Source: Ruegeria denitrificans (lineage in GTDB: Bacteria; Pseudomonadota; Alphaproteobacteria; Rhodobacterales; Rhodobacteraceae). From it: a DNA stretch of 64,000 nucleotides. Of this stretch, positions 60,932-63,228 are shown piece after piece. Numbering within the stretch: the stretch's first letter is position 1; the number at the start of each line of letters is the position of its first letter. Location of the stretch: positions 124,001-188,000 of the forward strand of contig NZ_CYUD01000005.1 of NCBI RefSeq assembly GCF_001458295.1, read 5' to 3'. A model generated the notes under the pieces. It saw only the letters and a program-made list of their open reading frames with translations. It was not told the origin of the DNA and did not search any database. Both the position numbers and the translations under genes were made by a program.

Positions 60932-61672
60932 TTAACTAGCGAAACTTGTGGCCAGAAAATCCAGCTGCCCACTCAGATCAGTTTGCTCGTCGCTACCGAT
61001 CAACATGTAACCATACCCATCCTGCGCCCAGGTTGCTGTGGCCAGACCGCTGAGCACCGCCTGTGTCACATCCTTGTTCGGCGCACCCTCACCCTGTCGG
61101 ATGACACAAAAGGCAAAGGGTTGGCCCTGCGCATCGGCAAAAACCACCTGAATCAGCGGCTTACCCTTGAACGACAGAACCTGTGCACGTTTCAGCTCCA
61201 TTCCCGGCAAGGCTTCGAGTTCTTCGCGGTTCAATGACCGGCCCAGCTGAGCCTCGGCCTGCGCGAATTGCGCGTCCAATGTCTGAGCGGAATTATCCAG
61301 CGACGCAATTGTATCCGGCACATAAAGCGATTGATAAATCGCCGCCTGTTGGGCCCAGCCCAACGGCTCGGGCCGCGTGGCCCAAAAGGTCGCTGACACC
61401 GCCACAACAGCGACCGCAGCCGCGACGGCCAGCAAACGCAGACCACCACCGGCAGGCGTAGCTGGGGCCATCGGCTGCGGCAGATCAACCTGCGGTGCTT
61501 CCGCAGGTACGTGTTCAAAAACCGCCTGCACCACAGGTGCGAACGGGTCCAGCGCCATCAGACGCTGTTCCAATGCAGGGTCCGCCTCTACCGCGCTTTC
61601 GATCGCACGGATTTCGGCCTCATCCAGCTTGCCTTCCAGATACGCCATCAGCGTCTCATCGGAAAACTTCAT
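60932..61672 (-). CDS. Anti-sigma factor-like membrane protein
   Basis: This 246-residue protein begins MKFSDETLMAYLEGKLDEAE, the zinc-free anti-sigma-type N-terminal motif. A Pro-rich segment, one membrane span (GLRLLAVAAAVAVVAVSATF) and a periplasmic domain follow. It starts in an ATGA overlap with the ECF sigma gene, the standard place for a cognate anti-sigma factor. The periplasmic part (QAAIYQSLYVPDTIASL) is not a domain I recognise. Confidence 0.75.
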   Translation of the reverse strand: MKFSDETLMAYLEGKLDEAEIRAIESAVEADPALEQRLMALDPFAPVVQAVFEHVPAEAPQVDLPQPMAPATPAGGGLRLLAVAAAVAVVAVSATFWATRPEPLGWAQQAAIYQSLYVPDTIASLDNSAQTLDAQFAQAEAQLGRSLNREELEALPGMELKRAQVLSFKGKPLIQVVFADAQGQPFAFCVIRQGEGAPNKDVTQAVLSGLATATWAQDGYGYMLIGSDEQTDLSGQLDFLATSFAS

Positions 61673-62205
61673 TTGCCACTCCGTCGAACGGCGTCTGCCG
61701 CCTCATGCTGCATCACGGTTTTCAATTTCTGCCGGGCATTGGACAGCCGGCTCATGATAGTTCCTATCGGCACCTCCAGCAACGCGGCAGCTTCGCGGTA
61801 GCTATAGCCCTCAACAAACACAAGCATAACCGTTTCCCGCTGCGCCTCTGGCAGCTGCATCACTTGTGTAAACACTTCAGTAGCAAAAATATTCGTTTCT
61901 GAATCGTTTCCGGGTGCAATTAAGTCTGCTTCGGGTGTCACGGACAGCGCTTGCGCCTTGCGAACCGAACGCGCTCGCACCTCATTCAGCCAGATCGAAC
62001 GGCAGATCGTCATCAGCCAGCTGTCCAGCCGGTCATGCGACGTGACCTGGTGGTGCCGTTCCAACGCGCGCAGACATGTGGATTGCAACAGGTCGTCGGC
62101 TACGTCCGATGCGCCGGACAGTGCCAGCCCAAAACGCCAGACGCGTTTTGAATGCATCTGGATCGCGCCGCGCACGGCCTGTTCCGAACTAATCTCACCA
62201 CCCAT
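61669..62205 (-). CDS. ECF RNA polymerase sigma factor
   Basis: This 178-residue ECF factor has region 2 (SKRVWRFGLALSGASDVADD, then LLQSTCLRALERHHQ and SWLMTICRSIWLNEVRAR) and region 4 (LPEAQRETVMLVFVEGYSYR, then EAAALLEVPIGTIMSRLSNA). The ATG at 62205 gives a normal ECF N terminus. An ATG at 62271 would extend it by 22 residues and place the start almost on the divergent gene; neither has a strong ribosome site. It is paired with the anti-sigma gene and faces the YceI-cytochrome c gene, which may be its target. Confidence 0.87.
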   Translation of the reverse strand: MGGEISSEQAVRGAIQMHSKRVWRFGLALSGASDVADDLLQSTCLRALERHHQVTSHDRLDSWLMTICRSIWLNEVRARSVRKAQALSVTPEADLIAPGNDSETNIFATEVFTQVMQLPEAQRETVMLVFVEGYSYREAAALLEVPIGTIMSRLSNARQKLKTVMQHEAADAVRRSGK

Positions 62206-62289
62206 CGAATAAATCGCGACCTGTGTGTGTTTGCTTTCCACGGACCGGGCCCGCGTGGTCAGGACTGACATAACCCGAGGAGGAAAGAA
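62206..62289. promoter_or_regulatory. Divergent control region of the ECF sigma and YceI-cytochrome genes
   Basis: An 84-base region holds both promoters if the downstream ECF start is right. A strong GAGGAGGAAAG ribosome site precedes the YceI-cytochrome gene. No repeated ECF-type -35/-10 pair could be assigned by eye. Confidence 0.35.
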
Positions 62290-63228
62290 ATGAAACTTCT
62301 GTTGAAGGCAGTCACGATTGCGTCGGCAATTGTTGCAACCCCGGCGCTGGCGGACGGCTGGACCCTCGTCCCCGAAGGATCGCATCTGGCCTATGGGACA
62401 ATCAAGAAAGACACCGTGGGCGAGGTCAATTCCTTCACCAACCTCAGCGGACACGTCAGCCCGGACGGCAAAGCCGAGATTCAGATCGACCTGTCCTCGG
62501 TCGAGACTAATATCGACATCCGCAACGAACGCATGATCGAATACGTGTTCCGCAAAGCAGGCACTGCTGAGCTGACGGCCACGTTTGACATGGCCGAAGT
62601 CTCGGGCCTTGGGGTCGGTGAAACCACCACTGTTGATACCGAGGCCGCGTTGTCGCTAGCCGGAACGGATGTGGCGTTTGAAGCCGAGATGTTTGTTGTG
62701 CGCCTCTCTGAATCTTCAGTGATGGTGTCGACCAACGACATGGTGTTCATCAGTACCGAAGACGCAGGTGTAAATGCGGGTGTCGACAAGCTATTGGAAC
62801 TGGCCAGCTTACCGGGCATCACCCGCACGGTTCCGGTGACGGCCCGGCTGATATTCAACATGGATGGCGAACAGGCCGCCGTGTCTTCTACCGCCCCGGT
62901 TGCCGTTGCCGCAGTAGAAGGAGACATCAAGGCGGGCAAGAAAGTGTTCCGCAAGTGCAGCGCATGCCACAAGCTGGAACAAGACCGCCACACCGTCGGG
63001 CCATCGCTGCACGGGATCATTGGCGCCACGGCCGGGCAAGCAGACGGGTTCCGGTATTCGGCCCAATTGCAAGAGTCGGGCATTGTCTGGACCGCTGACA
63101 CCCTGACCGCGTTCCTGTCCGACCCGCGTGGCACGATCCCTGGTAATAAGATGCAGTTTCCAGGTTTGAAAAAGGACGAAGATATCACCAACCTGATCGC
63201 CTATCTGCAGGCTGAAACACAGGGTTGA
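62290..63228 (+). CDS. YceI-domain / cytochrome c fusion protein
   Basis: This 312-residue periplasmic protein has a Sec signal peptide (AVTIASAIVATPALA-DGW). A YceI-like lipocalin-fold domain covers about residues 22-195 (WTLVPEGSHLAYGTIKKDTV, then GHVSPDGKAEIQIDLSSVET). A short Ala/Val/Thr linker leads to a class I cytochrome c from about residue 210. The haem site is Cys223-x-x-Cys226-His227 (CSACHKLEQDRHTVGPSLHG), with axial Met288 in PGNKMQFPG. YceI domains bind isoprenoid quinones or similar lipids in known cases, so a redox link between such a ligand and c-type haem is plausible. It starts with a strong ribosome site and is divergent from the ECF/anti-sigma pair. Confidence 0.85.
   Translation: MKLLLKAVTIASAIVATPALADGWTLVPEGSHLAYGTIKKDTVGEVNSFTNLSGHVSPDGKAEIQIDLSSVETNIDIRNERMIEYVFRKAGTAELTATFDMAEVSGLGVGETTTVDTEAALSLAGTDVAFEAEMFVVRLSESSVMVSTNDMVFISTEDAGVNAGVDKLLELASLPGITRTVPVTARLIFNMDGEQAAVSSTAPVAVAAVEGDIKAGKKVFRKCSACHKLEQDRHTVGPSLHGIIGATAGQADGFRYSAQLQESGIVWTADTLTAFLSDPRGTIPGNKMQFPGLKKDEDITNLIAYLQAETQG

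Follow-up and report, generated by a model that had tools for sequence, protein, structure and literature searches.

A YceI-cytochrome c fusion gene in Ruegeria denitrificans faces an ECF26-like sigma/anti-sigma pair, with matching promoter-like motifs before the fusion gene and inside the sigma gene

Described systems resemble, in one part or another, the locus analyzed here: a gene for a secreted YceI-cytochrome c fusion protein that diverges from the genes of an extracytoplasmic function (ECF) sigma factor and a membrane anti-sigma factor, in a 64,000-nucleotide stretch of Ruegeria denitrificans DNA (the window; NZ_CYUD01000005.1, positions 124,001 to 188,000). Published accounts describe Cbp2D of Cellvibrio japonicus as a protein with a YceI-like X158 domain and c-type haem domains that is implicated in cellulose breakdown; Cbp2D and Cbp2E are made up of CBM2, X158, FN3 and X183/X132 modules, the isolated X183 domain of Cbp2D reduces lytic polysaccharide monooxygenases (LPMOs), and one of two structures of the Saccharophagus degradans X158 domain held ubiquinone-8 (PMC8981238, PMC10154616). 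The YceI lipocalin BcnA and the cytochrome b561 LcoA are reported to guard against lipid peroxyl radicals, with ubiquinone-8 proposed as the working ligand of BcnA and with LcoA-BcnA fusions in alphaproteobacteria (PMC9113575). On the regulatory side, the ECF26 sigma factors RpoE1, RpoE3, RpoE4 and RpoE6 of Sinorhizobium meliloti are described as recognizing promoters with -35 GGAATA and -10 GT, and an RpoE6-dependent promoter for the anti-sigma gene was suggested inside the rpoE6 (ecfR6) open reading frame (ORF; PMC6180224). In Escherichia coli, promoter P3 of rseA is placed inside rpoE, 228 nt 5' of the rseA start (PMC8595263).

The most informative feature of the Ruegeria locus, absent from an earlier note on this DNA, is a promoter-like motif inside the sigma gene, which points at the start of the anti-sigma gene, about 200 nt further on, and repeats a motif found in front of the fusion gene. 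The latter, GAATA-N15-GYGTT aimed at yceI (N14 in three cases), came from aligning the yceI upstream regions of sigma-linked loci. In the comparison set of 80 distinct yceI genes of the X158 type, an adjacent sigma gene accompanies 35 fused and 20 unfused genes and is lacking for 4 fused and 21 unfused ones; a gene counts as "adjacent" if it falls inside the fetched flank (1.5 kb in most cases). The strict motif precedes yceI at 55/55 distinct loci where sigma is adjacent, at 2/4 fused loci where it is not and at 0/21 YceI-only loci where it is not. A weight matrix at a score of at least 18 recovered 35/35 fused and 20/20 unfused genes with sigma, 2/4 fused and 1/21 unfused genes without, and 2/3685 background windows; in reverse orientation it matched 0/55 loci with an adjacent sigma gene and 1/25 without. 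GAATA and the GT agree with the published ECF26 consensus, apart from the first base, which is mostly C here (0.80), as in the S. meliloti SMc01022 promoter; the order of the S. meliloti elements, -35 GGAATA and -10 GT, supports the same reading direction (PMC6180224).

Where yceI and sigma lie apart, the motif stays with yceI and not with sigma. At L009, L053 and L059, yceI stands away from sigma and keeps the motif, and the distant sigma gene (46-47% identity) has none in front. Five genomes have a non-adjacent sigma gene at least 46% identical, and in three of them the motif precedes yceI, in one there is none (G054/L013) and in one it is reversed (G310/L034); in the five genomes with no sigma gene at E ≤ 1e-15 (G197, G183, G076, G237, G123), no motif precedes yceI. 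Four co-directional loci with the order yceI-(cytC)-sigma-anti-sigma have the motif before yceI, scoring 25.5 (L024), 18.3 (L256), 26.7 (L260) and a weak 14.0 (L259). Of 30 further sigma loci, none has a motif pointing toward sigma (best score 6.7), and 14 have one facing away from it at a score of at least 15 (L261 among the loci, its target ambiguous). We rejected the idea that the motif is the sigma gene's own promoter on the opposite strand, as the motif accompanies yceI and not sigma. Four Ruegeria genomes (L267-L270; G774, G786, G801, G043) keep sigma and anti-sigma and have no YceI match; their divergent site is weakened to scores of 12.6, 0.6, 16.1 and 19.7 (the last still above 18), compared with at least 27.9 in Ruegeria with yceI and 29.4 in the window, and the internal copy is exact in 4/4. 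The earlier note had proposed that the sigma/anti-sigma pair controls the fusion, and this conserved, oriented, ECF26-like motif lends the proposal support at the level of sequence.

Of 59 sigma genes, 52 have the exact internal motif, where synonymous codon shuffling predicts 6.4. Thinning the set to representatives below 70% identity leaves it in 14/21 (1.5 expected), and below 60% in 10/13 (1.2 expected). A hold-out of all 26 distant sigma matches fetched later, used for testing alone, contains it in 18 genes against 0.91 expected, with P values that are overstated because some of these sequences are near-copies from one genus. The codons ACG AAT ATT and GTG TTT are fixed in 38/38 Ruegeria sigma genes of the alignment. 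In distant relatives the residues V-F become V-L, I-V or V-V and TGTT is retained, and across the distant sigma set the internal motif is the top segment of synonymous constraint. When distant sigma genes of at least 40.5% identity were divided by gene order, 32/46 non-operon genes had the exact internal motif versus 0/4 co-directional ones (Fisher p 0.013, uncorrected for phylogeny; the four loci may represent one lineage). In the co-directional order the yceI promoter already stands ahead of the anti-sigma gene and would make an internal promoter redundant, which is suggestive and not proof. These comparisons indicate that the internal motif is conserved beyond coding need and under selection.

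Internal anti-sigma promoters are known from rseA P3 and suggested for ecfR6, and the present case is therefore a variant, not the first of its kind. RpoE6 is 41% identical to the window sigma over 138 aa, and we place its published internal site at pSymA 79454-79478, within an ORF that ends at 79507. From the published description, the S. meliloti system shares small regulons (RpoE1 and RpoE3), a divergent target (rpoE6-SMa0142) and the suggested internal anti-sigma promoter; it differs in its targets, which are a protease, a sulfite oxidase and a YceJ-like protein, in the autoregulation of RpoE1 and RpoE4, and in the position of the site at the end of rpoE6, as opposed to mid-gene here (PMC6180224). 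The downstream membrane anti-sigma factor typical of ECF26, with an N-terminal anti-sigma domain, a transmembrane helix and a periplasmic domain, is present in the window, the helix being read by eye at low model confidence. E. coli P3 is likewise described as a sigma-dependent promoter inside a sigma gene, at a distance close to that seen here (PMC8595263), but rpoE belongs to group ECF02 and activates its own promoter, whereas no motif precedes the window sigma. What appears new from the sequence comparison is the mid-gene position, the strong synonymous constraint across the subfamily and the lack of a motif before sigma. Positive autoregulation of sigma, usual among ECF systems according to the review PMC8103513, is thus not predicted. 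A literature search, with most subscription journals outside its scope, returned no paper that connects YceI to such an ECF/anti-sigma pair.

The predicted regulon amounts to about one target plus the brake, since the strict motif CGAATAN{14,15}GTGTT has five matches in the genome, two of them at the fusion locus, with one match for the backward control. The pattern GAATA-N15-GYGTT has 12 matches versus 9 for the control, and in our ORF reading only the fusion promoter lies clearly 5' of a gene. Twelve other genomes gave 30 motif matches, 15 of them at system sites (8 internal, 6 before yceI and the one at L034), with a control sum of 9. Within reach of the strict motif we therefore rejected a large regulon. 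In other Rhodobacterales the same type of sigma/anti-sigma pair stands opposite a gene for a secreted DUF4399 protein with a GHHH motif, and the promoter motif precedes that gene (assignment by Pfam for L170 and L253, by eye for L242, L251, L262, L264 and L265).

The encoded protein bears out what the earlier note had read from the sequence, namely a secreted YceI-cytochrome c fusion with CXXCH and a Met axial ligand, opposite an ECF sigma/anti-sigma pair at the coordinates of Table 1. Pfam places Cytochrom_C at aa 213-307 (E 1.3e-8) and YceI (PF04264) at aa 24-161 (E 2e-4), the latter slightly below the cut-off (22.2 versus 23.7 bits; 23.8 in the genome scan, with its neighbours). The YceI identity of the N-terminal part is nevertheless clear: phmmer matches it to the S. 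degradans X158 structures 2x34 and 2x32 (E 2-3e-26), and the fold match reaches Z 21.9 to 3q34 over 170 residues and 20.7 to 2x32/2x34. BcnA and BcnB share the YceI fold with the model (Z 14.5-15.1). CXXCH, a distal Met and a cytochrome c fold place the haem domain in class I, and the Met motif M.F.G lies downstream of CXXCH in 39/39 distinct fused relatives, the window's own among them. Because the AlphaFold model has a moderate mean pLDDT of 65.2, the arrangement of the two domains is left uninterpreted.

The earlier note had called YceI and cytochrome c usually separate. The fusion is real here, and neither an assembly artefact nor chance, yet one protein with YceI/X158 and c-type haem has already been published in Cbp2D, so the fusion itself is not new. 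By the description of Cbp2D (PMC8981238, PMC10154616), the two share a domain of the quinone-binding X158 type, followed within a single secreted protein by c-type haem, and a proposed redox role; the fusion differs in having no CBM or FN3 and a single class I cytochrome c with CXXCH and Met. A role as LPMO donor, as for Cbp2D, was rejected, as no LPMO_10 gene (PF03067) was found in the genome, in a search that covered the LPMO_10 family alone. With BcnA/LcoA, as described in PMC9113575, the fusion shares the pairing of a YceI lipocalin with a haem protein, which is a membrane b561 there and a soluble class I cytochrome c here. No b561 gene is linked or fused to the fusion locus, both PF01292 matches of the genome (E ≤ 0.001) lying on other contigs. 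The same genome has an LcoA-BcnA-like cytochrome b561-YceI ORF at C2:258202-259377 (L135) and, beside it on the opposite strand, another YceI gene at C2:259474-259962.

Occurrence in other genomes, a check that the earlier note had suggested, was counted at E ≤ 1e-30 and with the own genome included. The 54 Ruegeria genomes divide into 31 with the full fusion, 8 with YceI only at the same site, 2 with a cytochrome match only and 13 with nothing; among 394 sampled genomes of the family, the fusion is present in 8, a YceI match without fusion in 20 and a cytochrome match only in 12. YceI is unfused at 20 of the 55 distinct sigma-adjacent loci, those of 8 Ruegeria species included, and the 8-row YceI-only Ruegeria group nests among the fused ones (SH-aLRT 99 in a quick tree). 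A single clade of fused cytochromes was not rejected (approximately unbiased test, p 0.40, with 7 of 29 Ruegeria-like fused rows entered). At L024 (G073) yceI is followed by a separate secreted cytochrome c gene (signal peptide by eye), then sigma and anti-sigma, and at L259 (G946) a cytochrome c gene likewise stands between yceI and sigma. YceI and cytochrome c thus co-occur as a fusion or as neighbours, and the regulated unit exists with YceI alone too; the cytochrome is a variable add-on of that unit. L123-L125, from another family of the same class, have an X158-type YceI with a C-terminal OmpA domain instead (Pfam-tested for L123). Further YceI-OmpA fusions appeared among plasmid matches, which makes this a second fusion type of X158-type YceI.

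The explanation that we favor, and consider probable though far from certain as a whole, is a small self-limiting sigma circuit for envelope stress, coupled to a quinone-haem relay. It builds on the domains, haem ligands, gene order, conserved oriented motifs and selection on the internal motif, all established from sequence, and from these we infer the signal, promoter activity, ligand and electron route. The membrane anti-sigma would hold the ECF26-like sigma until some envelope signal frees it. Freed sigma would then start transcription at two matching promoters, one before the divergent gene of the periplasmic fusion protein and the other within the sigma gene, which would yield extra anti-sigma and hence negative feedback. 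Self-activation of sigma is not predicted, there being no promoter of this kind in front of its gene. The ligand of the YceI barrel is most likely an isoprenoid quinone, by analogy probably ubiquinone, since one of the two structures of X158, the nearest solved relative by sequence, is reported to have held ubiquinone-8. The tethered class I haem c may pass electrons between the bound quinone and the periplasmic cytochrome c pool, which would maintain the quinone in whichever redox state its antioxidant or carrier work requires.

Several observations weigh against this explanation. Related sequences inflate the motif counts, and the 55/55 figure is partly circular because motif and matrix were derived from sigma-linked loci; that circularity does not touch the 0/21 contrast, the hold-out set or the direction tests. 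The 59-gene set comprises sigma genes above 44.5% identity, a cut chosen after the alignment had been viewed, and among more distant ones the internal motif occurs in 0/7. Exact copies are also missing from 14/46 distant non-operon sigma genes, of which 8 have near-variants (L015, L016, L026, L029, L031, L058, L159, L251) and 6 have no motif (L164, L166, L262-L265). In Ruegeria the strongest synonymous constraint falls at the 3' end of sigma, where the anti-sigma start overlaps, and the motif comes second. The internal copy scores 21.2 versus 29.4 for the upstream copy, with a spacing of 14, not 15. The fused yceI of L013 (G054) has no motif before it despite a sigma gene at 49%, and at L034 (G310:C34) a strong motif faces away from yceI, toward a gene named by eye as ahcY (adenosylhomocysteinase)-like. 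Many genomes also have YceI with no cytochrome c, the 8 Ruegeria at the same locus among them.

Other readings of the motifs have to be set beside the favored one. GAATA-N-GTGTT might be the site of another regulator and no sigma promoter, and its -35-like part is indeed near-palindromic in several loci (CGAATAATTCG). However, its boxes and spacing resemble the mapped S. meliloti ECF26 promoters as published (PMC6180224), and it is directional and tracks the presence of a window-type sigma gene; we judge another regulator very unlikely. The internal copy might also be a by-product of protein constraint or of RNA structure in the sigma gene, given that the N-I-F-A-x-E/Q-V-F stretch is conserved as protein too. 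That reading we find highly improbable in the face of the synonymous positions fixed in 38/38 Ruegeria, the residue changes that keep TGTT, the excess over synonymous shuffles (52 versus 6.4 and 18 versus 0.9) and the lack of the motif in 4/4 loci with the anti-sigma gene already downstream of the yceI promoter, even if these four may be one lineage (Fisher p 0.013).

The output of the circuit could likewise differ from the proposed relay. The fusion might act in lipid-peroxide defence as a BcnA-like protein with its own donor: ubiquinol in the barrel would quench lipid peroxyl radicals, and haem c, drawing electrons from the respiratory chain, would reduce the quinone again, which is the role proposed for LcoA. 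In favor of such a role are the published BcnA/LcoA system with its alphaproteobacterial fusions (PMC9113575) and the activation of a YceJ/cytochrome b-like gene by an overexpressed S. meliloti ECF26 sigma, as reported in PMC6180224. The shared fold of BcnA/BcnB and the b561-YceI ORF in the same genome point the same way. The potential of a class I cytochrome c usually lies well above that of ubiquinone, however, so quinone reduction by it would be uphill and quinol oxidation easier, and we regard this role as rather unlikely. Alternatively, YceI alone could be the functional output, a carrier of an isoprenoid lipid or quinone, with the cytochrome a dispensable add-on; the 20/55 unfused sigma-linked genes and the YceI-only Ruegeria group among fused ones speak for it. 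Set against these are the CXXCH and Met ligand retained in 39/39 fused relatives and the separate cytochrome c gene kept between yceI and sigma in L024 and L259, from which we take it that the YceI and cytochrome functions travel together. A dispensable cytochrome therefore seems unlikely to us.

Coordinates are collected in Table 1. The sigma and anti-sigma genes overlap by 4 bases, and the start ATG of the fusion ORF is preceded by AGGAGGAAAG. An alternative upstream sigma start is possible near 62271, and a start of this kind is annotated in Ruegeria sp. THAF33 (NZ_CP045385.1, L273), whose copy of the locus is carried by an 811-kb plasmid, with the fusion labelled merely "cytochrome c family protein". 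The nearest named relative of the window is R. atlantica HKCCD9150, at 95% identity.

Table 1. Positions of the genes, domains and predicted promoters of the locus, in window coordinates
Feature	Position	Strand	Basis
YceI(X158-type)-cytochrome c fusion coding sequence, secreted, 312 aa	62290..63228	+	ORF, Pfam, phmmer, fold match
Signal peptide of fusion, aa 1-21	62290..62352	+	by-eye reading of sequence, no predictor
YceI/X158 lipocalin-like domain, ~aa 22-192	62353..62865	+	phmmer to 2x34; VIA-align Z 20.7-21.9
Class I cytochrome c domain, aa 211-310	62920..63219	+	Pfam, phmmer, fold match
CXXCH of fusion, aa 223-227	62956-62970	+	
Met ligand M288 of fusion	63151-63153	+	
Predicted ECF promoter of fusion, CGAATAA ... 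GTGTT, ends 58 nt 5' of start codon	62206..62231	+	motif comparison
ECF sigma factor coding sequence, 178 aa	61669..62205	-	ORF, Pfam
Predicted internal promoter in sigma gene, codons 104-112, CGAATATTT ... GTGTT, N14 spacing	61871..61895	-	motif comparison
Membrane anti-sigma coding sequence, 246 aa	60932..61672	-	Pfam, alignment

The anti-sigma factor consists of an N-terminal anti-sigma domain, one hydrophobic helix at about aa 83-101 (by eye, at low model confidence) and a periplasmic domain at about aa 106-246. The model of the latter resembles the C-terminal domain of RseB/MucB (Z 8.3 over 95 residues, the top rows at Z 8.0-8.3), and its best Foldseek match has E 4e-3, with none at 0.001, so that this modest likeness may serve as a weak hint of a role in sensing lipid or the envelope. 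C189 of the anti-sigma (60935-61672), in its periplasmic part, is invariant in 18/18 aligned sequences and is possibly a redox-sensitive residue. On a speculative and doubtful extension of the favored explanation, the locus would be a near single-target ECF loop: sigma would switch on a quinone-lipocalin/haem conduit together with its own inhibitor, the latter from the embedded promoter, but not itself. On the same extension, the periplasmic domain of the anti-sigma would sense the state of the lipid or quinone that is put right by the lipocalin-cytochrome, and a loop of redox homeostasis would thereby be closed on the outer side of the inner membrane.

The locus bears on the role of the quinone bound by YceI lipocalins, as one such lipocalin is fused here to its probable redox partner. 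The fusion is apparently under a dedicated, near-private sigma factor, in a genus where some species have the haem domain in this unit and others lack it. Such overlap of codes, with a predicted promoter under synonymous constraint within a sigma gene, suggests selection for direct anti-sigma feedback across an ECF subfamily.

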